Part shown: one piece after another, positions 3,630 through 61,500 of the stretch | How the letters are laid out: each line of letters begins with the position of its first letter | Position numbering within the stretch: position 1 is the first letter of the stretch | NCBI GenBank assembly: GCA_030737835.1 | Contig: CM060853.1 | Coordinates: forward strand, 6,539,819 to 6,603,818 | From: Acorus gramineus | Taxonomy: Eukaryota; Streptophyta; Magnoliopsida; Acorales; Acoraceae | DNA: 64,000 nt | Direction: 5' to 3' | Program-made: the position numbers and the translations under genes | Notes under the pieces: generated by a model | What the model was told of the DNA's origin: nothing | What the model saw: only the letters and a program-made list of their open reading frames with translations | Database searches by the model: none

Positions 3630-3685
3630 CCCAAATATAAACCCCCTTCTTGTTCTCTCTCTCTCTCTCAATCGAAGGTCCTCTA
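3630..3685 (+). promoter_or_regulatory. Core promoter and 5' leader of the O-fucosyltransferase gene
   Basis: A TATA-like AAATATAAAC at about 3633-3642 is followed after roughly 15 bases by a CT-rich tract (TCTCTCTCTCTCTC, 3655-3669), a common plant initiator/leader feature. The ATG chosen for the gene is at 3686. Confidence 0.4.
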
Positions 3686-6600
3686 ATGGCGAAGCGGACC
3701 CAAAATAGGCTCTCCTACATATCAGTCCCTTCTCAGTTCATCCACTCCATCTCCTCCTCCCCCTCCCTCCACTCCCTCCTCATCTCCCCAACCAAGAACC
3801 CCTCACCGTCGCCGTCTCCCTCCGCCGCGTCTCGTCTCCTCTCCCTCACAAGAAACCCAAAATCCTACCTCATCTGCCTCTCCCTCCTCGCCTTCCTCTG
3901 GACCTCCCGCCTCCTCCTCCTCGGCCCCGACCCCCTCCTCCCCTGCTCCCCCCTCGCCGCCGTCCGATCGCGCGGGCTCCTCTCGATGTCCGCGCTTCCT
4001 GTTCCGGATGGCGGCGCGATTTCCGAGACGGCGGCGGAGGGGGAGTTCTGGAGGCAGCCGGAGGGGTACGGTTACCGGGGGTGCGTCGGGCCGAGCGAGG
4101 GATACAGGAGGGAGAGCGAGGCGTTGGTGAGAGGGAGGAGGAAGTATTTGATGGTGGTGGTGTCGGGCGGGCTGAATCAGCAGCGGAACCAGATTGTCGA
4201 CGCGGTGGTCATTTCGAGGATTCTCGGGGCGGCTCTCGTGGTTCCGATCTTGCAAGTCAATGTCATCTGGGGCGACGAAAGGTTAGTGGGTTTGATTGGG
4301 GTTTTTTAAAAATGTGTTCTTGGAAAAAAAATTTGTTGAATCGATTTATGATTTAAATTTTTTTGGCGAGTGAGCGTTATGACGAAAGAAAGGTTTTCGT
4401 CAAGAAGAAAAACAATCCAAGAAAAAACGCGTTTTTGTGGTGAAAAAAAATTCCTTGAAGACGAAAGGTTGGCGCTTTGTGGGGAATTAAAAAATGCGAT
4501 TTTTTAACTGTATATGCTTTTGAAAAATGCGAACTTTAGAGTGAAACTGTGAAAAAAATTGCGTTTTTTTTCTTTCTGAGTTCGGACTTCTGAGAGGTTG
4601 GTTGGGTGGGTGTGTTTTTCGGAAAATCTTTTAGAGCAATTTTTGGTGGGGTTTTGAGTTTTGATAAAATTTTGTTTCTTTTCATTTGGGTTAATGAGAG
4701 AATTGAAAATCAAGATGTTCCAAAAATACGAGTTTTTGTGTGTTTTTTTTTTTTTCACTTGGCCAACGTTTAGTCAGGAAGAAAAAATTAAAAATCCATA
4801 AAAAAAAACGCGATTTTAGAATGAAATTGTATTTTTTTTAGAAATTCTTTTTAGAGCAATCTGTGGTGGGTTTGATGTTTTTATTAAAATTTTGTGCGTT
4901 CTTTTCATCCGAGTTGGTGAGAGAACTGAATTCCAAAAGTCCGAGTTTTTATGTTCTTTTTTTTTTTTTTAACATTTGGAAATCACGATCTCTCTGTAAC
5001 GTGAGTTCTGACATTTAATTCTTTTTAAATTGAGATTATACCGTTGAGAGGGTCAGATGAAGCTTTTTTAATTAGACGTTATAACAGTTAATTAGGATGT
5101 AAAACCATCACGTTTAGTCTAATTTACAACGAAATGCCACTAAATTCCGTTAATCACAAACAAGTATCTGCAACCCACAATTCAAAAATCAGTTTTTTGA
5201 AGTTGAATGATATTTGAAACCATGAAAACCTGTATATGAATTTAACATGTGAATTCAATCTGTTTTTTTGGGTGACTTTACTGTCATAGACTCTTAGCAA
5301 TTCAACAGTTCTAGTAATATTTTGTAAACTTGTTTGGAATCATTTGAATGGTCTACTTTTTACAATGCATGATTTTCTTAACACAAATGGATAGTTGGAT
5401 TCAAAACAAGAACTTCGGATAATACTGTTTTAAGGTTGTTTACATCGCATTGTTTTGTCATTACTTTGAATTATATATTGTTCATTCATTACACTGGGCT
5501 GAATCCTCCAATTGCACCTCCTCGCAGTGAATTCTCTGATATATTCGACCTGAAGCATTTCAAGAAGGTCCTCGCCGACGATGTCCGGGTGGTATCGTCC
5601 CTCCCATCAACACACGTGATGACGAGGCCCGTTTTGGAGTCACGGACACCTCTTCACGTCTCCGCCCAATGGATCCGGCAGAGGTACTCGAGGCGGGTAA
5701 GCATTGAAACCACTCGGGGGACAGTCGCTTGAATCATCTATGGATGCTAACTTACCAACTCTAATTGCAGCTTAACAAGGAAGGCGTCCTGCTCTTGCGA
5801 GGCCTTGATTCAAGGCTGTCGAAGGACCTCCCTCTCGATCTCCAAAAGCTCCGGTGCAAGGTTTGCAAGCCTTCTTTGCACCTCTGTCTTTCCTACCCGT
5901 TCGATCTTGATGGATGATATTCATTTCACGGTTGTTTTGGAATCCGTTTTTTTAGGTTGCTTTCCATGCATTAAAATTCTCCGCCCCAATCCTCAACATC
6001 GGGAATAGACTGGCGGATCGGATGAGAAAACAAGGGCCATACCTTGCTCTGCATCTGAGGATGGAGAAGGATGTGTGGGTGAGGACCGGTTGCCTTCCAG
6101 GGCTGAGCGAGGAGCTCGATCAGATCGTTCAAGAAGAGAGGAAGCTTCGCCCTGAGCTCCTCACCGCGAGGTCTAACATGACTTTCCACGAGCGCAAGCT
6201 CGCAGGACTCTGCCCCTTGAACGCCCTCGAAGTTGCTAGGTACTCTTCTTCAAACACCTAATACAGTACATACTTTACTATGTCATTACAAAAACGGTAA
6301 GTGTGACAGTAGGCCTACTAAACAGGTTTCTTAAAGCACTTGGAGCTCCGAGGAATGCGAGGATATTCTGGGCGGGAGGCGAACCATTTGGTGGGGAAGA
6401 CGCGTTGCTTCCCTTGACTCGCGAATTCCCCAACTTTTACAACAAGGACAGCATATCCTTGCCGGGCGAGCTTGAGCCCTTCTCGAAGAGGGCGTCCCTT
6501 CTGGCAGCCATCGATTTCGTGGTGTCCGAAAGGGCTGACGTCTTCATGCCGTCTCATGGTGGAAACATGAATCATGCGATGCAGGGACTCAGAGCCTATG

Positions 6601-6821
6601 CGGGGCACAGGAAGCACATAACGCCGAACAAGCGGGAGATCTTCACGCACTTCTTGAACACTTCGATGCCCGAACCAGAGTTCAACAGGATCATAAAGGA
6701 GTTGCACAAGAACTCTCTGGGGCAGCCTGAGATGAGGACAGACAAGGCGGGGAGGGATGTCACGGCCTACCCCGTCCAGGAGTGCATGTGCAACGATTCA
6801 AAAGCGAGGTTGACCTTGTGA
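3686..6821 (+). CDS. O-fucosyltransferase family protein (plant GDP-fucose protein O-fucosyltransferase-like)
   Basis: Five exons: 3686-4281, 5528-5696, 5771-5860, 5956-6239, 6326-6821; all introns GT..AG and phases agree, giving 544 residues. The protein is a type II membrane protein: a short basic N-terminus, then a single membrane anchor at about residues 60-79. The lumenal catalytic part has GGLNQQRNQ (161-169), which begins the GDP-fucose-transferase fold, HLRMEKD (318-324), the family's conserved HLR-x-E-x-D segment, and near the C-terminus GEPFGGEDALLPL and SHGGNMNHAMQG, which match the plant family's nucleotide-sugar site. By family knowledge it acts in the Golgi, probably on cell-wall glycans or glycoproteins; the acceptor cannot be read from sequence. 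The first ATG in frame after the leader was used. Intron 1 is unusually long and repetitive. Confidence 0.92.
4500..4975. repeat. Degenerate tandem duplication in O-fucosyltransferase intron 1
   Basis: Two blocks of roughly 200 bases (about 4500-4760 and 4790-4975) share the same order of motifs: AAATGCG or AACGCGA, then TTTTAGAGCAAT, then GGTGGG-GTTTGA, then AAAATTTTGT, then TTCTTTTCAT, then GAGAGAA-TGAA, and finally a CGAGTTTTTGTG-type motif followed by a T-run. The copies have diverged, so the duplication is old. Confidence 0.55.
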
Positions 6822-7099: not shown

Positions 7100-7740
7100 T
7101 CACATTTTTTTTGTCTTCTGTGTTTTCTCTATGCATGTGAATCTTTCATGGCTCATCTTTCTTCGGATAATTTAGGCGTTGATGAAAGTGAACGAACTTG
7201 AGAAGATGGAAACACAACCATACATGAAAATAGATTTACGTGGTTTATCCAGAGAGAGGGAAAGAAAGGATTTTCTATCAAATTTTTGGATTACAAACTC
7301 TATGCATGGGACACGATTCTGATTCTCACTCTCAACCTTGGACTTAAGTCTGGAAAGAAAATATATCCCCGATACATTACCACAGTGTCCGGATTGTGAT
7401 TACACGCGAATAATACTCATGCATCTTATTTTACCCGCGTTTTCATTCGTAGTGACAATAAAAAAAACTTCGTTGTTGCAATCCTTTCTTGACAATATAG
7501 AAATTAAGATGCAAGACATAAACGTTAGACCCAACATAGAAGAACATGAACTTACTTATATGATCTCCCCAGAGTCTTGTGTAACAGTCTTTACAAGTGT
7601 CAGTATGCATCAAACATATTAGTATCATCATCTCTGTTTCAGTCTCTAAAAACCAAAACTGCCAAAGCAAAAGCAAAAGCTAACACTACTCAAAGAAAAG
7701 CAAAAGATTAGAGCATCTCGTATCCCTTTAATCTTTCCCT
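7100..7740. other. Intergenic, possible degraded LTR fragment
   Basis: No gene is seen. The stretch around 7200-7260 (ATTTACGTGGTTTATCC with flanking purine-rich sequence) resembles a phrase common in plant Copia LTRs, but no matching second LTR or coding domain is present. The open frames here start at non-ATG codons and show no family features. Confidence 0.3.
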
Positions 7741-7829
7741 TTAATCTTTACTCACTCCCCAAGCAAACACTCCTCTTTAGTCTCATCTCCTCCTCTCTCC
7801 ACACAAACACACACACAGACTCCTCCAAT

Positions 7830-8816
7830 ATGAACTACCTTCATCTACTCCTCCTCCTCCTCTCCTCCCTCAGCATCTGCTCCTCCCAATCAACCCTCTG
7901 CCGAACCACCTGCGGCGACATCCCAATCCAGTACCCCTTCGGCATCGACGAAGGCTGCGGCAGCCCGTACTACCGTAACGCCTTCACCTGCTCGTTCTCC
8001 TCCGGTCTCCGCCTCCGCACCCCCTCCGGCACCTACCCAGTCAAGAAGATCACCTACTCCCCCGACCCACACTTGATCGTCACCGACCGCTTCATGTGGG
8101 ACTGCGCGGACGCCTCCGCGTATCGCCCGACGAGGCCCTTCAGCCTCGACACGAGCACGCGCTTCGTCCTCTCCCCTCTCAACGACTTCCTCTTCTTCAA
8201 CTGCACCCCGGGCTCGGTCGTCTCCCGCCCGCGCCCCAGCGAGTGCGCGCGCGAGCCCGACCTCTGCGCGTCCGCGTGCGACCCCTCCGCGTACCTCTGC
8301 CGCAACCTCCCCAACTGCCCTTCAAACGCGCCCCCCTGTTGCGCGTACTCGCCGAGGGCGTCGGAGTCGCTTCGTCTCATGCTGACGCGGTGCACCACCT
8401 ACACGAGCGTCTACTGGAGCAGCCTCGACGTCGGCGGAGGCGGAAACGGCGCGCCTTGGCCTTACGATCGGGTCCCCGAATACGGCGTCCGCATCGAATT
8501 CGAGGTGCCGGTCACCATCGATTGCTTGCGGTGCATGGACAGCGCGAGCGGGGGCGCGTGCGGGTACGACACGGGGTCGCGGAGGTTCCGGTGTCTGTGC
8601 CGGGAGGGGAACGAGACCGTGAATTGCGTCGATTCGGGGGAAGGCGGCGCGCAGAGGAAGACGAGGAGGGCGGGGGTCGTCGCGGGTGCGGTCGTCACGG
8701 TTGCGTCGTTTTGCGCCTTCGTCGGCGTTGGGGGTTTTGTTTGGCGGCTTAGGAAAATGAGGTTGAATAAGCCGGTGACATGCGGAGTTCAGACTAACGA
8801 GAATCGGCTCTTTTGA
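7830..8816 (+). CDS. Wall-associated receptor-like protein without kinase (GUB_WAK_bind / WAK_assoc type)
   Basis: A single-exon gene of 328 residues. A hydrophobic signal peptide covers residues 1-19. The mature N-terminus has CRTTCGDIPIQYPFGI (24-39), the hallmark start of the galacturonan-binding GUB_WAK domain, followed by many cysteines in the spacing of that domain and then of the WAK-associated C-terminal domain. A membrane segment lies at about 281-305, followed by a basic stop-transfer sequence and a tail of only about 20 residues. There is no kinase domain, whereas LRK10L/WAKL relatives carry one, so it may be a binding-only co-receptor or decoy, or a copy that lost its kinase exon. 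Family knowledge places it at the plasma membrane contacting pectin. Codon usage is strongly GC-rich compared with the flanks. The start is the first ATG after a CT/AC-rich leader. Confidence 0.88.
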   Translation: MNYLHLLLLLLSSLSICSSQSTLCRTTCGDIPIQYPFGIDEGCGSPYYRNAFTCSFSSGLRLRTPSGTYPVKKITYSPDPHLIVTDRFMWDCADASAYRPTRPFSLDTSTRFVLSPLNDFLFFNCTPGSVVSRPRPSECAREPDLCASACDPSAYLCRNLPNCPSNAPPCCAYSPRASESLRLMLTRCTTYTSVYWSSLDVGGGGNGAPWPYDRVPEYGVRIEFEVPVTIDCLRCMDSASGGACGYDTGSRRFRCLCREGNETVNCVDSGEGGAQRKTRRAGVVAGAVVTVASFCAFVGVGGFVWRLRKMRLNKPVTCGVQTNENRLF

Positions 8817-41874: not shown

Positions 41875-43145
41875 CTTTAGTTTTCAATTTAAAGGATAAT
41901 TGTTTGATAACTCTGTTCACAGAGAATTTTTCATTCTCACACATAATAGATCCAGTTCTAATGAATTTTATAAAAACAACAATTTTTTTTCTTCTTTAGC
42001 AGACAAAATCACAGCCAGGTCCCTCAAATCAAACGGTCAAATCCGGCAAAACCCCCCCAAAGGAAAAGAAAACTATCAAATCACGAAACGATCAGACGGT
42101 CCTCATTTCTAAATAAGAGGTCCACGGTGGACCCCAATTTCACGTTTTCGGTACAGATGACTAACAGTGTCAATGTCAGCACACATTACGCTCCTTAAAC
42201 TACACCTTCTTTCATCCCTCCTCATGATCCAATACCAACCGTACAAACCCCAAATCGAGAAGAAGAGGATCCTCCGTATCCTCACCGGACGTGAACAACG
42301 GATGTCGGACTTGAAAACGGCGCCATAGCTCACACGCGTGGCCTGGCACGTGCGAGCCTCGGCGGTTGCCTTGTAAAAAAGGGAGGCTCTGTTTAGTCGG
42401 TCTCAAGAAAAATCGCGAATGAGCGATCACTGTTTTCCGAATCACAGACTTCGAGTGGCTCCGGAAGCCAACGAAGTAGGGTTTTGAAGTTTCGGGTATG
42501 AAATCTCATTCGTTTGATGCCTCTTTCTCTTCTTCTGTGAAAAAAAATCGTTTTTTCCCGTCTCGGATTGGTCCATTTCGGCGAAATTTGTGAAATCTGA
42601 AGCATTTAATCACTGGGGTTCGAAATGTGTGGGTTTTTCGTTGATTTCGTCCGATTTTAGGGTTTCTCGTGAGTTGCATTGTGGTTTCTGAGTTCTGGGT
42701 TCTCTTTTTTTATTTTTTATTTTGTTGGTTTGGCTTTTGGTTTCTGCAGGGGCGATAATGGCTTCTCTATGAAATCTAGGGTTTTGCGTCACATTTTGAA
42801 GTTCTGAATCGCTTCGCTATTTCAAGATCTTATTTTGTCTTTTTGAGTTTGAATCGAAAGTAAAAATAACTAAAAGCGCGGTTTTTTTTCTTTATCGAGT
42901 AGCCCTGTTAATTCGGCCGGATTTATAGTGCTGTTTTTGGTCTTCTGAAGGACATTTGAAACCCTAGCGTGCCTTTTAGAGCTTCCCCCCTTTTTGGGTA
43001 CACATTGAATTTCAAAAACCCCTCTCTCAACAGGTTTGCTGTTCCACTTCAAAAAAATTTCATCAAAGGCGACAACTTTTTCAACAGAAACCCCTCAATT
43101 TCCAACCCAATTAAGTTTTCTTCATTGGGTCCCCTGCAATAGACG
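41875..43145 (+). promoter_or_regulatory. Promoter and spliced leader of the MCTP gene
   Basis: From about 42380 the sequence becomes leader-like, with candidate splice acceptors TTTCTGCAG (ending at 42750) and CTCTCAACAG (ending at 43033). A leader intron is common in this gene family. Clusters of ACGCGTGG and CACGTGCG motifs near 42335-42355 could be regulatory. No protein-coding exon is visible. Confidence 0.4.
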
Positions 43146-45795
43146 ATGATGATGCAGCGGCCGCTCCCTCCCGAAGAGTACTCCCTGAGGGAGACCTCGC
43201 CGCACCTCGGCGGGGTCATTGCCAAGGGCGACAAGCTGACGAGCACGTACGACCTCATCGAGCAGATGCAGTACCTCTATGTCCGCGTCGTGAAGGCCCG
43301 GGACCTCCCCGCGATGGACGTCACAGGCAGCTGCGACCCCTACGTGGAGGTCAAGCTCGGCAACTACAAAGGCACGACCCCCCACTTCGTGAAGAAGACC
43401 AACCCCGAGTGGAACCAAGTCTTCGCCTTCTCGAAAGACCGCATCCAGGCCTCCGTGATTGAGGTCACCGTGAAAGACAAGGACTTTGTGAAGGATGACT
43501 TCATCGGCCGCGTCTCCTTCGACCTCACCGAGGTCCCCAAACGGGTTCCCCCCGACAGCCCCCTCGCCCCGCAGTGGTACCGATTGGAGGACAAGAAGGG
43601 CGACAAGGCGAAAAGCGAGCTCATGCTGGCTGTTTGGATGGGCACGCAAGCCGACGAGGCCTTCCCCGAAGCCTGGCATTCGGACGCCGCGGCGGTGCCA
43701 AGCGAGGGCCTTGCGAGTATCCGATCGAAGGTCTACTTGTCGCCCAAGCTTTGGTACGTGCGGGTGAACATCATCGAAGCGCAGGACTTGCTAGTGAGCG
43801 ACAAGGGCCGGTACCCGGAGGTGCTTGTCAAGGCCGTGCTCGGAAACCAGGCTCTCCGAACCCGGGTCTCCCCGAGTCGGAATTTGAATCCCATGTGGAA
43901 CGAGGACTTGATGTTTGTCGCAGCCGAACCGTTCGAGGAACATTTGGTTCTTAGCGTGGAGGATCGGGTGGGGCCGAAGAAGGACGAGGTGTTGGGGAAG
44001 GTCGCGATTCCATTGCAGAACGTCGAGAGGAGGTTGGATTACAGGGCGGTGAATACAAAGTGGTACAACCTCGAGAGGCACGTCGTCGTCGCGGAGGGGG
44101 ATCAGAAGAAGGAGACGACGACGACAAAGTTCTCAAGTCGGATCCATTTGAGGATATGTTTGGACGGCGGGTACCATGTCTTGGACGAGTCGACGCATTA
44201 CAGCAGCGACCTCAGGCCAACGGCGAAGCAGCTGTGGAAGTCGAGCATCGGGGTTTTGGAGGTCGGGATACTGACCGCGCAGGGGCTCTTGCCGATGAAG
44301 ACCAAGGACAAAAAAGGGACGACGGATGCGTATTGCGTGGCGAAGTACGGGCAGAAGTGGATCCGCACGAGGACGATCATCGACTGCTTTGCGCCGAAGT
44401 GGAACGAGCAGTACACTTGGGAGGTGTTCGACCCGTGCACGGTGGTGACCGTTGGAGTGTTCGACAATTGCCATTTGCAGGTAAGCATGTCAACGGATCA
44501 GATACCTTAATAACTGTATTTTATCCTGAATTATTCAGATACAAGTATTAATACTAGAATTCTAGATGCAAAGTAGATACAGTTATTTTCCTATATTTTA
44601 CATGTTTAATTATGGAAACTAGTTTGCTGATCATGTGACATATTAGGAAAAAATTGAGATTTCAGAAATTTCTCGTCATATTCAATGATCATACAAAGAG
44701 AATTCAATGTTATGATTAATCATGAATATATTTGAATTCGGAACGGATATGTATATTTTTTTGGATAATTGAGAGGATTATACGCAGGGTGGGGACAAGG
44801 CGACGGAGACGAAGGATTCGAGGATCGGGAAAGTGAGGATCCGACTCTCGACGCTCGAGACCGACAGGGTCTACACCCACTCGTACCCACTTCTTGTCTT
44901 GCATCCGTCGGGGGTGAAGAAGATGGGGGAGGTCCAGCTCGCCGTCCGGTTCACGCGCTCTTCCCTCCTCAACATGCTCTACATCTATTCGCTGCCCCTG
45001 CTTCCGAAGATGCACTACCTCCACCCACTGTCGGTTACCCAACTGGACAATCTCCGGCACCAGGCGACCCAGATCGTGTCAATGAGGCTCGCCCGTGCTG
45101 AGCCCCCGCTGAGGAAGGAAGTGGTGGAGTACATGCTCGACGTCGACTCACACATGTGGAGCATGCGCAAGAGCAAGGCCAACTTCTTCCGCATCATGGG
45201 CGTCTTGGGCGGGCTGATCGCGGTGGGCAGTTGGTTTGATCAGGTTCGCAACTGGAAGAACCCGCTCACGACGGTCCTCGTTCACGTCCTTTTCATCATC
45301 CTCGTCTTGTATCCCGAGCTGATCCTCCCGACTGCGTTCCTCTACCTGTTCTTGATCGGCATCTGGTACTACCGCCGGAGGCCGAGGCAGCCCCCCCACA
45401 TGGACACCCGCCTCTCCCACGCGGATGCTGTCCACCCTGACGAGCTGGACGAGGAGTTTGACACGTTCCCGACATCTCGCCCTCCGAACATCGTGCGGAT
45501 GAGGTATGACAGGCTGAGGAGCGTCGCGGGCAGGATACAGACTGTGGTCGGGGACCTCGCTACGCAGGGGGAGAGGCTCCAGTCGCTTCTGAGCTGGCGT
45601 GATCCGAGGGCGACCGCGCTCTTCATGACGTTCTGTTTGGTCACTGCGATCGTTCTGTACGTCACGCCGTTCCGTGTTGTGGCGCTGGTGGCGGGGATCT
45701 ATGCGTTGAGGCATCCAAGGTTCCGTCGCAAGCTTCCGTCCGCGCCGCTCAACTTCTTTCGGAGGTTGCCGGCGAGAACGGATAGCATGCTATGA
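43146..45795 (+). CDS. Multiple C2 and transmembrane domain protein (MCTP / FTIP3-4 type)
   Basis: Two exons, 43146-44480 and 44788-45795, in frame, give 780 residues (three consecutive ATGs; the first is taken). Three C2 domains are seen: about 40-140 (DVTGSCDPYVEVKLG with the calcium-ligand aspartates and VKDKDFVKDD), about 205-320 (SDKGRYPEVLVKAVLG, where the usual acidic ligand positions are changed), and about 370-490 (TKDKKGTTDAYCVAKYG). After these comes the plant phosphoribosyltransferase-C-type membrane domain with hydrophobic segments around NFFRIMGVLGGLIAVGSWF, VLFIILVLYPELILP and FCLVTAIVLYVTP. Length and motif order match the Arabidopsis MCTP3/MCTP4 branch. Family role: ER-plasma membrane tethers at plasmodesmata that control trafficking of mobile regulators. 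The exon is visibly GC-rich. A 307-bp intron interrupts the third C2 domain. Confidence 0.93.
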
Positions 45796-53562: not shown

Positions 53563-56500
53563 ATGGACACGAAAATATCCTTGGAAGATCAATTTTCCAA
53601 GCTGCATCCATGTTTTCCAGCCAACACGAGAATCGGTATAGTTGGAGCTGGGCCAAGTGGATTATCAGCTGCCTATGCCTTGGCTAAGCTCGGTTACTGC
53701 AATGTAACCGTCTTGGAGAAATGTAAAAATGTGTCGGGCATGTGTGAATCATACGAAATTGAGGGTGAGAGGATTGCTAACTGTTTTTTTTTTTTGATAT
53801 GTCATATCTAGCTCAGGTTCTTCTGTAACTTTATCTGATCATACGATTTTTTTACATATTTTGTTCTATAGGAAAGGTATACGATCTTGGGGGTCAAGTT
53901 CTTGCTGCTAACAGTGCTCCTGTCATCTTTCAATTGGCAAAGGAGATGGGGTCTGAACTCGTAGAGATGGACTCACACAAGCTTGCTGTTATCGACAGTC
54001 ACACAGGAAAATATGAGGACCTCGATGTGGCAAACGATTACATCTCTATTTTATCACTGACATTGAAACTCCAGGTCTGTTTCTGTTGTAACTGTTTCAT
54101 TTTTAGTACTATCTTTGATGAGTTTTCTTTGGAGATCCGTGTTGGTCATGTTGGTTACCAATTTTTTTTCTTGTTTTTAAAATATAGGATGAGGCTAAGG
54201 CCTCTGGTCGAATTGGAGTCCATGCCGTTAGTGACATTGCTTCCAACCTGACCCCTGATTTCCTTAAGCGCAATGGGATTAAATTCGTTCCAAAATCAGT
54301 GGCATATGGATACACTGCTTCTGGGTGGGGTTTCGTTCAAGACATGCCATATGCATACATTCAGGAATTTGCTCGCACTTCCATGGCTGGAAAAATAAGA
54401 CGCTTCGAGGGAGGGTACATGAGCATGTGGCAAAAACTGTGCCAATCTCTGCCATTCGAAGTGCTTTGTAACACAGAGGTTTTGTCAATCGAGCGCAGTT
54501 CATTGAGTGCCCATGTAAATATCAGGAGTGCTGATGGAGAAAACAAAATGCTGGAGTTTGATAAGATTATCGTCTCCGGTGCTTTTCCCTTCAAGAATGG
54601 AAGAACATATAGATCGTCATCAGCTTCAAAAGGTGAAACTGTCGTCTAAGCATCACATGGGTTTTTATTAATCCTTCTGATATGTCTTGAATAAGAAAAT
54701 TTGATGCCTTTTGCATGTGCAGATATCGAATCCATGGTGATGGAGTTGAGTGAGATTGAAAAGGAGTTGTTCAGTAAAGTAGAGACTATAGATTACTACA
54801 CAACTGTCCTGAAGATCAAAGGACTTGAGCATATGTCCATGGGTTTTTATTATTTTGGGGAGTTCATGGAGGACCCATCGACCATTGGGCATCCAGTGGC
54901 AATGCAAAGATTCTTTGCTGATTCCAACATTTTCCTATTCTGGTCTTATGGAAACGCATCAGACATCAAGGGTCCAACAGTGACAAAACTTGCTACTGAA
55001 GTGGTGAAAAACATGGGAGGCGAAGTGGAAGATGTGATTTTACAAAGAAGATTCAAATATTTCCCGCATGTGAGCAGTGAAGGTACACTAACATATAACT
55101 CAAACTTTTCTCGTTATCTTCAATTCTGTTTCAGCTAGTTGATCAATCACTTCAAATACAGACATGCAGGGTGGTTTCTATGCCAAGTTGGAGGATGAAC
55201 TTCAAGGCCTGCAAAATACCTATTACGTTGGTGGGCTCATGGCGTTTGAGCTTACCGAGCGAAATTCATCATACGCAATGGCTATGGTCTGCAAACACTT
55301 CGCAAATGATAATTCATTGCACTCTTATCCATATGTCAAGGTAATATAACTTGATATTTTGATAGCCTTAGTATTTTAATGGTGTTAGAAGACATGACAT
55401 CATGCTTATCCTGAAACACATTCCTCTGCAGAGACTGTTTCCATTGCTTTCAAATCACGAGCCCCCCACCCCTCAAGAACTCGATGAGTTCCCTGGAATT
55501 CAATTTCCGGATTTGAATTCACTTGATGGCTACTTGAAGTTCTGGGGGACTCATCCATTCACTGAGAACAGAACACTTTATACTTGGCTCAACGACGAGG
55601 GAGGAGTCGCCACCCAGCGAACCTACCGTGAGCTACATAACAATGCAACTCTGATCGCGCACAAGCTTTTGACGAACAACAAACCGGTCATCAAGCCTGG
55701 CGACAGGGTTCTCTTGGTCCATCTCCCCGGTCTGGACTTTGTCGATGCCTTCTTCGGGTGTCTAAGAGCTCGTGTTCTACCCGTTCCACTTATTCCCCCC
55801 GATCCCCTTCAAAGTGGCGGACAAGCACTTCTCAAGATCGAAAATGTATCTAAATCGTGCGGTGCAGTTGCGATTCTATCCACATCATTCTATCATTCTG
55901 CTGTTCGGGCAGGCTTTGTGAGGAATATCATATCACTATCGAAAAGCAACGGGAAGTCCTCTGCGCGATGGCCTGACCTTCCATGGATCCACACGGATGG
56001 GCTGATTAAGAACTCTAGAAAGGCATCCACTGAATCATCGGAGGATGTCATAGACCACTCAGAGCCCCAGCCGTCGGATCTATGTTTCCTGCAATTCACT
56101 TCTGGTTCGACCGGAGAGGCGAAGGGCGTGATGATCACTCATGGAGGTCTCATTCACAACGTGAAGCTGATGCGGAGGAGATACAAAAGCACGTCGAGGA
56201 CCGTGCTGGTCAGCTGGCTCCCTCAGTACCACGATATGGGCCTCATCGGCGGACTCTTCACTGCATTGGTCAGTGGGGGAACCGCCGTCCTCTTCTCCCC
56301 GATGACGTTCATCAAAAATCCGCTTTTATGGCTCCAAACCATGTCTAGTTACCGTGCCACTCACAGCGCAGGGCCTAACTTCGCATTTGAACTCGTGATC
56401 AGGAGACTCGAGTCTGGGAAACAGAACACCCAATGCTTCGATCTCTCATCCATGGCGTTCCTCATGGTCGCTGCCGAACCGGTGAGGCAGAAGACACTCA

Positions 56501-59500
56501 AGAAATTTGTTGAACTCTGCCACCCATTCGGCCTCTCTCAGATGGTGATGGCTCCCGGTTACGGTTTGGCTGAGAATTGCGTGTTTGTGAGTTGCGCGTA
56601 TGGAGAAGGCAAGCCTATCTTGATAGACTGGCAAGGCAGGGTCTGCTGTGGTTACATCAATCGAAATAGTCCCGATGTCGATGTGAGAATCGTTGACCCA
56701 GAAACTGGCATCGAACACGAAGAGCATGGGAAGGAAGGGGAGGTGTGGATCAGCTGTATGAGTTCTGGTGTTGGGTACTGGGGAAAGCATGAGCTGAGCC
56801 AGATAACATTCCACAATGAGCTTCAGACATGTCCGGGGACGAAGTTCACAAGGACAGGGGATCTCGGGCGGATCATCGATGGGAATCTCTTCATCACTGG
56901 CAGAATCAAGGACCTGATCATTGTCGCTGGAAGGAACATATACTCCGCCGATGTTGAGAAGACTGTCGAGACCTCCTCTGACATCTTACGCCCGGGGTGT
57001 TGCGCTGTCATAGGTGTTCCTGAAGAGATCTTGTCAAGCAAAGGCATTTTGGTTCCTGAAACTACTGATCAGGTTGGTCTGGTTGTGATCGCCGAAGTTC
57101 GAGAGGACAAAAGAGTCGATAAGGAGGTCGTCGAGAAGATTCAGGCGAGCGTCGCTGAAGAGCACGGAGTCCCTGTCGCGTCTGTGAGGCTGATCAAGCC
57201 CAGGACCATTTGCAAAACCACATCGGGGAAGATAAGGAGGTTCGAGTGTCTGAAGCAGTTCATGGAAGGGACGCTGAGCCTGGCTTCCGAACCCGTCTCC
57301 GTGAAGAGACCTCCCCTGTGTCGGTCTTTCTCGACGGGTACTTGTACCGAAGGAAGAACTCCCCGTCAGCTTGGCAAGAAACCGCCTCTGCCTCAGCGCT
57401 TTGAATTTGGCATGAACGAAATCATCGGGTTCTTGAAAGAGCTGGTTTCGGAGCAAACCGGGATTTCGATCGACAAGATAACCGAGACTGAGAGCCTGGT
57501 TTCTTATGGGATCGACTCGCTCGGTGTGGTTCGAGTCTCGCAGAAGCTCTCTGACTTTCTTGGCGTTCCAATCGGTGCGATGGACATTTTCACAGCGACG
57601 TGCATCGAGGACTTGGCGAGCTTCTCGGAGGGCCTAGTTATGAAGTCTAAACCTCAGTCTGTGATGGACACATTGCTTGGCATGGATCATGAGCCAGAAT
57701 TGCGCCAACCCGATATCAAGGTCACGAAATTCAGGCAATTTGGTATTGGTTTTCTCCAGATTTTTGCCCTCATTTATGCTTCCGCAATTCTTCTTCTCCC
57801 CGCCTATATCTCCGCCTCTGCTTTCAAGAACATGTGCTTCGGCGGGAACTCGCATTTGAATTATCTGGTTCCATTGTTCTTAGCTCCTCTTGCTTGGATC
57901 CTTCAAATTTCACTCGCCTGCATTTCGATATCCCTCTTCGGAAACTCCTTCCTGCAAGGGAATTACGTGCTGATCCCCGAAGCCTCAATCTGTTCGATCG
58001 ATTTTGTGAAATGGTGGGCTCTTTACAAGGTTCAAGAGGTCGCGGGTAAGGTGTTCGCCGTTCATCTGAGAGGGACGGTGTTCCTCAATTACTGGTTCGA
58101 GATGCTAGGCGCACGGATTGGTTCGTCTGTCATCATCGACACGATCGATATCACCGACCCGTCTCTTGTTTCGATTGGAGATGGAGCGGTGATTGCAGAG
58201 GGAGCGCTTGTTCAAGGCCATGAAGTCAAGGATGGGATGATTCGTTTCCGACCGGTGAAGATCGGCCGGAAGTCCTCAGTTGGTCCTTACGCTGTGATTC
58301 AGAATGGAAGCATTGTTGGGGAGGAGTCTCAGGTCCTTCCTTTGCAGAAGACTGAAGGAGGAAAGCCGGTTTATGCATCAAAGAGGCCTACAAAACTTGA
58401 TAAGGTACTGTTTGAAACCAATTTTCAAAAACAACTTTTTCATAAAGACCATAATATGATCCCGTGTTAAGCATCCATGGCTGAATGGTTAACTGAAAAC
58501 TAATTCCAAAAGCTGAAGTTTTAAAATTCCCATTTGGAACTGATAACTGAAAACTAATTTTGCAGATGCATAATCAATTTTTCACAATTGGTTTTAAAAA
58601 GGGTCAATGTTTGGAAACTAGTTTGAAAAAAAAAAAAACACTTCACTTAGAACTACTTTTAAAAATAGCTTTCAAGGATTTTGTATTTGTTTGAACCGAA
58701 ATACTATTTTTATTAAATAAAAGTTGTTTTAGTTCCGTTCAAAAGTTTGGATCGTTTTGGGCGTTTGTAAATAAACTTGGGTAAAAGTATGATTCTTGCA
58801 AAAACAGAATTCCAAAAGCTGTTCAATCGCGTTTTCATGGTAGTGTGAAATAGCTTCTAATTAGTAATTGTGCTTCTCATGCAATCGCAAACATAACATC
58901 AAAAGATGAAGTTTTGCTCACTTTCATACCTATTTTGCACAAAAAAAAACATGCAGGAAGAAATCACAGAGAGATCTCAAGAAAAACACTTGCCTCTTCA
59001 TCAATTCATGGCCATCTACACAGTTGGTCTTCTCAGCTCTCTATCTGCTGCCATCCCTTACTTCCTCTACATCTCGTTCACCAAAACCTCCCCACACCCA
59101 CAACACTTCGCCTTCCTCTGCCTTGCCGGCGCTTTCCACTGGTTCCCATCCGTGATCGCTGCATATGCCGCCATGTTCGTCGAGCTTCCTATAAGCCCAT
59201 CAACCTTCGCATTCTACGTCGCCACCGCGTACCTCATCCACGGCGTCCTCCTCTGCAGCCTCACTGCCGTAGTCACTCGCACAGTCTCTGTGAAACAGAA
59301 ATGCCTTCGCCACCGCCTGATCACTGCCTGCCACGTCCGGTTCGCCAAGCTCCTCTCAGGCACCGAGGCGTTATGCGTGTATCTTCGCCTCCTGGGCGTG
59401 GAGATCGGTCAGCATTGCTCGATCAGGGCGATCAACCCCGTGGTTGACCCGGGGCTGGTCTCGATTGGTGATGGCGTGCATCTGGGTGACTTCAGCCGGA

Positions 59501-61500
59501 TCGTCACTGGCGTCCACTCCCGTGATGGGCTGCATTGCGCGAAGGTTGAGATAGGCAAGAATTCGATCATCGGAAGCCAGGCATTGGTCCTTGCGGGGTC
59601 TGTTATTCAGGCAGACGTCGTGCTTGGCGCTCTATCCGTCGCGCCCTCAAACGCGATCCTTCAACGGGGTGGCGTATTCGTGGGTTCTCAAGCTCCAGTA
59701 ATGGTGAAGAACACGTTGCACGAATCAGATGAACGCATCGACGAAATGGACCCAACGTACAAGAAGATCATTGGAAACCTCGCCGGTAACTTGGCGATCA
59801 CTACGATGAAGGTCAAGTCGAGGTACTTCCACCGGATCGGCGTAGGCGGGAGGGGCATTATGAAAGTGTTCGATGATTTACCGATGTTTCCCGATCATGA
59901 GATCTTCCGCACGGGGAAGAGCTTCCCCGTTATAGTCCGACACAGCAACAGCTTGAGCGCAGATGATGATGCGCGGATAGATGCGCGCGGCGCGGCGTTG
60001 CGGATACTGTCGGAGGGACCGGATGAGATGCCGTTGCTTGACTTGACGTTAAAGACGGGCAAGGCTTTCTACGCGCGCACGATCGCTGACTTTGCTAGGT
60101 GGCTTGTGTGTGGGCTCCCAGCGAGGGAAGAGCTCGTGAAGCGAGCCCCGCATATCGGGGGCGCCGTGTGGGGGTCGCTGAGGAACGCGAGCTCGTATGC
60201 CGAGCTCCACTACTACTCGAACTTCTGCCGTCTCTTGCGCTTTGCGGATGGTCGGGAGAGGTACGTGAAGTTCAAGCTCCGCCCGGCCGACGGTTCAATT
60301 GGTGAGGACTCCGGTGCGGTGGTCCCCAATGGGATCCTCCCGCCCGAGACGGGCGCGATCCCAAGAGATGAGCACGACAACCGTCCGATGCTGTTCCTTG
60401 CGGAGGACTTCAGGCGCCGGGTCGAGCGCCCCGGTGGAGTCCACTACGTGTTCCAGATGCAGATTCAGCCTGTGCCGTCCGACGAAGCGGGCCGAGAATC
60501 GGCCCTCGACTGCACGTGCCCGTGGGACGAGTCGTCGTTCCCTTACATCAACATCGGGGAGGTGATGCTCGACCATAACTTGACGACGGAGGAGTCAGAG
60601 AGGCTCGAATTCAATCCATTCCAGAGGTGCGCGGGCGTGGACGTCATCCGAGCGACGTCGTGCACATCGAGCGCGTCAATCGATCACGGCCGCTCGTTGG
60701 TGTACGAGATATGCCAGCGCCTCCGCAACGGCGTGCCCCTCCCCGCGGCGTGGCGGAGCTTCTTGGAGCAGTCCGACACCAAGGTTGATCTCTCCGGATG
60801 CCCGATATTGGCGCCCGCGACCAAAACCGCTAAGAAACCAACGCTCGCGCGGTCGTGGCACCAGACCCTCTGGACCGCATCCGCGCAACCAGTCCTACAG
60901 ACATTCCTCCCATATTTCATCCTCGCATCGGCGGTCTCCGCGCCTCTGCAAGTGCTGTTGTCGTTGAAGAGCACGCTCCCGCTTCAGCTGCTTCTGCCGC
61001 TGTTTTGGGTCGCGTCGGGGGTGCTCGCATCGCTCACCTGCGTCGCCTCCAAGTGGGTCCTCGTCGGGAAGAGAAACGAGGGCGAGGTGATGCCGATGTG
61101 GGGATTCGGAGCCTTTGCAGACACCGCGTGGCAGGCTATTCGGACGGTGACAGGGGACTACTTCGCGGACATGACCTGCGGGTCCGTGATGTTTGCGCTT
61201 TACATGAGGCTGATGGGTTCGGATATCGGAGGGGGGGTCTACGTGGACTCCGCACAGGCGGTGATGAATCCGGAGATGGTGGAGATCGGGCGGGGTGGGT
61301 GTGTAGGGCGGGACGCGGCGTTGTTCGGGCACATATATGAGGGGGAGGGGGGGATGGTGAGGTTTGGGAAGGTGAGGGTTGGGGAGGGTGGGGGTGTGGG
61401 GAGCAGGGCGGTTGTGATGCCTGGGGTGACTGTGGAGGGTGGGGGGAGTCTGAGTGCACTATCAGTGGCCATGAAAGGAGAGGTTGTGAGGTCTAGGTGA
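53563..61500 (+). CDS. Multidomain FAD oxidase / fatty acyl-AMP ligase / acyl carrier / Pls-like membrane transferase / haem megaenzyme
   Basis: Seven exons: 53563-53764, 53872-54074, 54188-54632, 54723-55082, 55162-55340, 55432-58404, 58957-61500; phases agree and give 2,301 residues. Domains: FAD-dependent oxidoreductase, about 20-460 (VGAGPSGLSAAYAL, 27-40). Adenylating fatty-acyl-AMP ligase, about 475-1080: FTSGSTGEAKG (685-695), SWLPQYHDMGLIGG (724-737), GYGLAE (839-844), TGDLG (938-942), GRIKDLIIVAGRN (953-965), TTSGKIRR with catalytic-type K1063. Acyl carrier domain with GIDSL, phosphopantetheine Ser1159. Membrane segments near 1235-1300, then left-handed beta-helix 1. Membrane segments plus beta-helix 2 (to about 1700). 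Catalase-like haem domain, about 1722-2057: RYFH with His1746, and RSLVY, an R-x3-Y proximal motif. A third membrane/beta-helix module to the C-terminus. The triple modules resemble the C-terminal region of epsilon-poly-lysine synthase. It probably activates and transfers an oxidised fatty acyl chain at a membrane; the product is unknown. Confidence 0.85.
58405..58956 (+). other. Last intron of the megaenzyme gene, transposon-derived sequence
   Basis: The intron begins AAG|GTACTG. Within ten bases it runs into a dispersed repeat with AACAACTTTTTCATAAA that also occurs at about 16128 and, inverted, at about 53246. It ends ACATGCAG|GAAGAA, with a weak pyrimidine tract because an A-run lies next to the acceptor. 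A different acceptor would break the frame of the large final exon, so this junction is preferred. Confidence 0.55.

Follow-up and report, generated by a model that had tools for sequence, protein, structure and literature searches.

Plant proteins in which a fatty acyl-AMP ligase (FAAL) lies between domains named 'HemY' and 'catalase' have been described, and their function is unknown (eLife 2021, PMC8460268). The plant FAALs were found by means of a pocket that rejects coenzyme A (CoA) and a FAAL-specific insertion (PMC8460268). Parts of these proteins can be compared with two further systems. The terminal domain of the synthetase PosA is about 730 residues long and contains three membrane-helix pairs and three left-handed beta-helices, which are predicted to pack together (PosA paper). 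The allene oxide synthase (AOS) of coral has R64, T66, H67, R102, N137, Y353 and R360 in its haem site, and N137 is described as not important for catalysis itself (coral AOS paper). Besides PMC8460268, the papers drawn on include PMC10522769, PMC5617202, and PMC13365329.

Here we describe a gene of this kind from Acorus gramineus. The window analyzed is a stretch of 64,000 nucleotides (assembly GCA_030737835.1, contig CM060853.1, positions 6,539,819 to 6,603,818), and the gene occupies positions 53563..61500 of it. All features of this gene given below lie on the + strand. We put the probability at about 0.55 that the encoded protein is a single-chain, membrane-anchored fatty-acyl assembly line, which would remodel a carrier-bound, probably unsaturated fatty acid and transfer it at the membrane. 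In outline, the architecture is already known (PMC8460268). The passages of that paper that we drew on assign no polyunsaturated-fatty-acid isomerase (PAI), allene-oxide-synthase or Pls identity, and the words 'hexapeptide' and 'Pls' have no occurrence in its text. The closer domain identities, the placement of the haem domain between the second and third of three membrane modules (C1, C2, and C3), the one-chain counterparts and the trees are added here. In a literature search outside which most subscription journals lie, PMC8460268 was the only paper found that describes such plant proteins, and no paper was found that describes these four points.

Gene model and conservation

Seven exons (53563-53764, 53872-54074, 54188-54632, 54723-55082, 55162-55340, 55432-58404, and 58957-61500) join into one open frame of 2,301 residues that ends in a stop. 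Each of the six introns starts with GT and ends with AG, and together they amount to 1,032 bases. The exon lengths place the flavin part exactly in exons 1-5 (residues 1-463), the ligase, carrier, and C1 in exon 6 (residues 464-1454), and C2, the haem domain, and C3 in exon 7 (residues 1455-2301). A first-pass annotation, made from the letters of the window alone, had proposed one gene of seven exons and 2,301 residues, and the in-frame GT-AG splice model agrees with it. The frame break between the flavin and ligase parts that would have spoken for separate genes does not occur. The motifs that it listed (GAGPSG, the adenylation motifs, a DSL serine, three beta-helix modules, a catalase-like His, and R-x3-Y) are all present.

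A search with the whole protein gave 541 proteins at E <= 0.001, and among the best 120 of them those with a named organism come from flowering plants only. Twelve plant proteins that were aligned over their full length are 64-71% identical to the Acorus protein and have the same domain order. Since full-length colinear relatives, with identities of about 63-71%, recur among the listed flowering-plant proteins, the observation is not due to chance. The cofactor, adenylation, and carrier motifs were each found in 115-120 of the 120 listed proteins (the carrier motif in 119). A tandem carrier motif is present in 14, namely twelve grasses (including rice, P0049), Reevesia (P0005), and Rosa (P0014). 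The first-pass annotation regarded such synthases as rare in land plants. Whatever holds for the class, the protein search finds this one to be widespread in flowering plants.

The highest identity among the matches listed (89% over 72%) belongs to P0086, a public gene model of Acorus calamus. It is without several exons, and the family is mis-modelled in that genome. Models of this family thus do go wrong, and the chain could in principle be an artefact that fuses neighbouring genes. We consider this very improbable in view of the in-frame splice model, the colinear full-length relatives in many flowering plants, and four contigs of 7.3-7.6 kb that contain the whole frame. These contigs, of at most 7,252-7,581 bases, encode proteins of 2,306-2,323 residues (P0023, P0065, P0075, and P0118), and their non-coding remainder is 310-618 bases. 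We read them as cDNA because this remainder is smaller than the 1,032 intron bases in the Acorus gene. Indirectly, they would support a single mRNA that covers the whole frame.

Domains of the plant protein

The adenylation domain (residues 480-1095, 55480..57327) matches PF00501 at 3.8e-55. Its best NCBIfam model is fatty-acid--AMP ligase at 323 bits (curated cut-off 775), while the models named CoA ligase reach 263 bits (PRK07768) and, for the next, 134 bits. The first 15 PDB chains (1.6e-83 to 2.2e-45) comprise seven FadD or fatty acyl-adenylate ligases, four entries named 'Acyl-CoA synthase', three polyketide synthases, and one saframycin synthetase. A plainly different CoA synthetase, feruloyl-CoA synthetase, first appears at 3.1e-19. 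By these comparisons the ligase appears nearest to the FAALs rather than to CoA ligases. The FAAL model's 323 bits compare with 130 for the model AA-adenyl-dom, so the domain does not class as amino-acid adenylating. An amino-acid-polymer synthetase was rejected on account of the FAAL-type adenylation domain.

The ligase is followed by an acyl or peptidyl carrier domain (residues 1120-1200, 57400..57642; PF00550, 3.5e-12). Its Ser1159 (57517..57519), in a DSL motif, is invariant in a 13-row plant alignment and is the predicted site of phosphopantetheine attachment. An adenylation domain and then a carrier with its attachment serine is the arrangement of an assembly line of the NRPS/PKS type. 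Condensation or ketosynthase extension domains had no Pfam match in the six open reading frames (ORFs) scanned. The fatty-acid-type adenylating ligase with its own carrier, as first proposed, is borne out by the FAAL models, PF00501, and PF00550. The profile search that the first-pass annotation recommended matched FAD/amine-oxidase models, NAD_binding_8, PF00501, PF00550, TIGR02353, and PF00199.

The N-terminal FAD domain (residues 1-463, exons 1-5, 53563..55340) has the dinucleotide-binding motif GAGPSG at residues 28-33 (53644..53661; Pfam NAD_binding_8). Pfam and NCBIfam give it a general FAD/amine-oxidase signature. The best PDB match is 2b9w, titled 'putative aminooxidase', with E 7.7e-26 over residues 21-450. 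The next match (9.7e-07) covers residues 24-100 only, and amine oxidases match mainly the nucleotide-binding end. We take 2b9w to be the PAI of P. acnes. A 2026 review names PAI and cites the paper on its structure; the code 2b9w is not printed in the passages drawn on. The match to PAI is nearly full-length and includes the stretch YFPHVSSED. A difference is that Glu433 and Glu436 (FEL-x-E) are common to the plants and to the line proteins described below, whereas PAI deviates there. Arg88 and Phe193 of PAI, presumably its substrate gate, correspond to Lys and to a gap, respectively, in 12 of 12 plant rows, in a region of weak alignment, and these two residues are not kept in the plants. This does not settle the PAI question, because a carrier-bound substrate is without a free carboxylate. 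The FAD-binding motif of the first-pass annotation stands. Its inference that the fatty acid is oxidized is not borne out, and the label 'oxidase' is doubtful, because the closest solved structure, matched over nearly the full length, is a fatty-acid double-bond isomerase. Readings of the domain as an amine oxidase or as HemY are weaker than the PDB match to PAI.

The catalase-related haem domain (residues 1715-2075, 59737..60819) lies between C2 and C3. It passes the PF00199 threshold of 25 with 37.9 bits. The best PDB match is coral AOS (1u5u, 2.9e-30), while a true catalase is marginal at 0.0067. The haem domain that had been called catalase-like is therefore present, with an allene oxide synthase and not a catalase as its nearest solved structure, and a plain catalase reading is the weaker one. 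The haem site resembles that of coral AOS in its distal His, its proximal Tyr, and four Arg. His1746 (59830..59832) corresponds to H67, and Arg2033-x3-Tyr2037 (60691..60705) to the proximal ligand motif R349/Y353, where we assume R349 to be a haem-site residue too. R1743, R1782, and R2044 correspond to R64, R102, and R360, so that six of the eight haem-site residues checked are kept. Counted over 121 rows (the 120 listed plant proteins and the Acorus protein), the columns of H67, R102, R349, Y353, and R360 are kept in every row and that of R64 in 120.

This constancy bears on a further explanation, in which the protein would be a non-catalytic or regulatory lipid protein with degenerate enzyme domains, like the FAAL-like DIP2 of animals. 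DIP2/CPS1 proteins are a precedent for FAAL-like domains outside polyketide systems (eLife 2021, PMC8460268). Against it, the cofactor, adenylation, and carrier motifs persist almost throughout the listed plant proteins and the six haem columns are kept in 120-121 of 121 rows, and we judge this explanation improbable.

The three remaining modules each combine hydrophobic segments with a beta-helix. C1 (57715..58392) has a hydrophobic pair and a left-handed beta-helix, and TIGR02353, the model of the Pls/PosA terminal domain, matches its ORF at 1.7e-23. C2 (58987..59724) has hydrophobic segments and a beta-helix. C3 (60832..61497) has a hydrophobic pair and a beta-helix, with residues 679-864 of the exon-7 ORF on profile positions 502-684 of 695. 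All three modules are matched by TIGR02353, and residues 1332-1826 of rice P0049 correspond to profile positions 2-476 in one stretch. In the hydropathy plot, paired hydrophobic segments precede each beta-helix, and there may be a third segment ahead of the one in module 2. On the profile matches, the modules that were first noted as three membrane beta-helix modules are indeed present, and they form a single Pls/PosA-type C1-C2-C3 unit with a haem domain of about 360 residues at the C2/C3 border. Such a unit also agrees with the earlier suggestion of a membrane transfer module. Two whole plant proteins score 186.2 and 174.5 bits with TIGR02353 and the Acorus protein minus its haem insert scores 200.1 bits, against a cut-off of 423.1; because the scores are below the family cut-off, we do not file the plant protein as a member of Pls/PosA. 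It shares with these synthetases the succession of adenylation domain, carrier, and three membrane/beta-helix modules. It differs from them in the FAAL-type adenylation, the N-terminal flavin domain, the haem domain at the C2/C3 border, and the unreached cut-off.

Because the modules follow one another as in the Pls/PosA terminal domain (C1-C2-C3), the protein might also be mainly a Pls-like N-acylating or polymer-type synthetase. In that case the beta-helix unit would form an amide between the loaded acyl group and a polyamine or amino acid, and the flavin and haem domains would do no more than trim the chain or serve as sensors. We consider this distinctly unlikely. The adenylation domain is FAAL-like and not of the amino-acid type, and the haem pocket is almost invariant. 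Ten bacterial Pls proteins that were fetched show weak (7) or undetected (3) FAAL similarity; none of the ten has a match to the catalase-related domain (Cat).

One-chain counterparts and descent

A GTDB scan with a FAAL-carrier-C1 alignment gave 171 confirmed places, of which 80 were kept. At one of these 80 bacterial FAAL loci, in Streptomyces phyllanthi (L042), Cat and FAD domains are found beside the FAAL. In L042:2693-10040 the FAAL stands beside one Cat-PAI-carrier-thioesterase protein, after which comes a PfaD-family gene, and the three make a candidate small gene cluster for a modified fatty acid. A search seeded with this S. phyllanthi protein listed 120 matches, and the first 60 were examined (P0181-P0240 were left out). 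Cat and PAI domains are present in 44 of the 60, and four also have the FAAL on that chain. With the Cat-PAI part of P0178 as the query, a second search yielded 47 proteins, of which 41 had not appeared before. Cat and PAI are present in 39 of the 41 and a FAAL as well in 27, and 11 proteins from this search match the PlsC-type end of P0178. Because both searches were seeded with Cat-PAI sequence, these counts are not natural frequencies.

These proteins, which we call lines, come from actinobacteria, the myxobacterium Archangium gephyra (P0256), the green alga Myrmecia bisecta (P0278, Chlorophyta; on a 13-Mb contig), and metagenomes. P0178, P0256, P0177, P0179, and the S. phyllanthi locus resemble the plant protein in having the FAAL, haem, flavin, and mostly the carrier domain. 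They differ in the order, which is FAAL-Cat-PAI-carrier, followed by a release domain that Pfam identifies as a thioesterase in P0177, a PlsC acyltransferase in P0178, and a thioester reductase in P0179. All 101 line proteins examined lack a recognizable Pls module. The variation of release domains among the lines fits C1-C3 as the release unit of the plants.

Both the Cat and the flavin domain are present in 83 of the 101 line proteins, as they are in the plants. Together with the amine-oxidase-type models that also match the flavin domain, this would agree with an explanation that involves no isomerization: hydrogen peroxide would come from the flavin domain, acting as an acyl-carrier oxidase or dehydrogenase, and the catalase-related domain would either consume this peroxide as a peroxygenase or remove it. 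Peroxide made in place would also supply the missing substrate, as no hydroperoxide-forming domain was recognized on the chain. However, the only near-full-length PDB match of the flavin domain is PAI, an isomerase, and in 18 of the 101 proteins the flavin domain is not accompanied by a Cat match. We regard this explanation as rather unlikely.

The lines show some variety of their own. Among P0134-P0176, which are actinobacterial and metagenomic, many PAI-carrier-thioesterase proteins also list cytochrome P450 (PF00067), with or without Cat, and P0251 has two Cat matches. The C-terminal regions of P0256 and P0278, about 500 residues each, are similar to each other by eye and resemble an alpha/alpha-barrel (terpene-cyclase-like). 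This shared region would suggest transfer of the line between bacterium and alga.

A bacterial gene with the domain order of the plants was not seen in scans of GTDB, plasmids, Myxococcota, and Actinomycetota. In the GTDB scan with a flavin alignment, none of the 145 pattern matches was a relative; this proves little, since relatives exist. In plasmids, no tblastn match extended over 80% of exon 6 or of exon 7. Five plasmid records match the flavin part, two of them over at least 80%, as single proteins or unannotated stretches. Among 377 Myxococcota and 396 Actinomycetota genomes, with about two candidates per genome scored, no single frame combines a Cat match with a Pls match; 43 and 34 genomes, respectively, had any match. 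Two matches overhang the border; one of them consists of Pls alone, and the other is FAAL-Cat-FAD-carrier-PlsC and contains no Pls.

The Cat tree contains 12 plant, 27 line, and 15 single-protein rows, out of 201 extracted domains and locus pieces. The 12 plant domains nest inside the 27 line domains (98/92), and the 15 singles, including coral AOS, lie outside. The line group needs two changes in this tree, and the fork of lines and plants has 97/52. The FAD tree has 44 rows, drawn from 219 extracted ones and three singles. In it, a clade of the plants with 29 lines is separated from the three single proteins (99/95), two of which are long-branched. In the FAAL tree of 52 chosen rows, 19 line FAALs, including those of S. 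phyllanthi and the alga, form one clade (100/99). The Cat and FAD trees support a common descent of the haem and flavin domains of plants and lines. One tree row, L148 from a plasmid of Sinorhizobium fredii NGR234, is a catalase-related stretch that spans two annotated genes and adjoins a di-haem cytochrome c peroxidase and a patatin-like phospholipase.

Proposed mechanism and significance

From the domains we infer the following steps, their order, the substrate, and the product. A free fatty acid, probably an unsaturated one, would be converted to acyl-AMP by the FAAL domain and loaded onto the protein's own phosphopantetheine carrier at Ser1159. The PAI-like flavin domain would then remodel the tethered chain by a double-bond shift or desaturation, and the allene-oxide-synthase-like haem domain may rearrange an oxidized chain. 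Finally, the C1-C2-C3 membrane domain would transfer the product to an acceptor with an amine or hydroxyl group. The result may be an undescribed lipid, as the first-pass annotation supposed. A line that modifies carrier-bound fatty acids is the best reading because three fatty-acid-related domains (FAAL, PAI, and coral AOS) surround one carrier, and because the same set recurs with interchangeable release domains.

Several points weigh against this reading. Neither the ligase nor the membrane unit of the plants reaches the curated cut-off of any NCBIfam model. In the haem site, the position of coral Thr66 is Phe in 121 of 121 plant rows and Asn137 aligns with Lys in all six plants compared, and therefore the plant haem reaction may differ from that of coral AOS. 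Neither a lipoxygenase partner nor another source of hydroperoxide was recognized on the chain in the Pfam scan. Domain identities between plants and lines are 25-37%. P0177 has Glu in place of the distal His, and the Cat match of the algal P0278 extends only to residue 951 and does not reach the proximal-ligand end, so that its 349-360 columns are misaligned flavin sequence. In the FAD tree the plants are sister to the lines with weak values (80/74), and the FAAL tree has no outgroup, so that the plant FAAL could group with the line FAALs or apart from them.

Elsewhere in the window there are ordinary plant genes. They include exons of an O-fucosyltransferase (3641-6821), the extracellular part of a wall-associated-kinase-type protein (7650-8816), and a C2-domain/PRT_C protein (43143-45795), which we take to be MCTP-type.

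The gene encodes an enzyme of about 2,300 residues with catalytic residues that are almost invariant across many flowering plants, crops included. Naming its parts gives direct tests of which fatty acid is loaded, how the flavin and haem domains act, and to what the product is attached. The bacterial lines are tractable models, and they suggest that the remodeling of carrier-bound fatty acids is wider than described. More tentatively, and with some doubt, we propose that flowering plants possess a so far overlooked, carrier-tethered route to modified fatty acids. Beside lipoxygenase/CYP74 it would be a third route to oxylipins or conjugated fatty acids. It would use enzyme domains that are shared with a hitherto undescribed class of bacterial FAAL-haem-flavin-carrier lines and have been set into a membrane scaffold of the Pls type. 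If this is true, the acyl products of plants and bacteria would be related, and they would be released by different chemistry.

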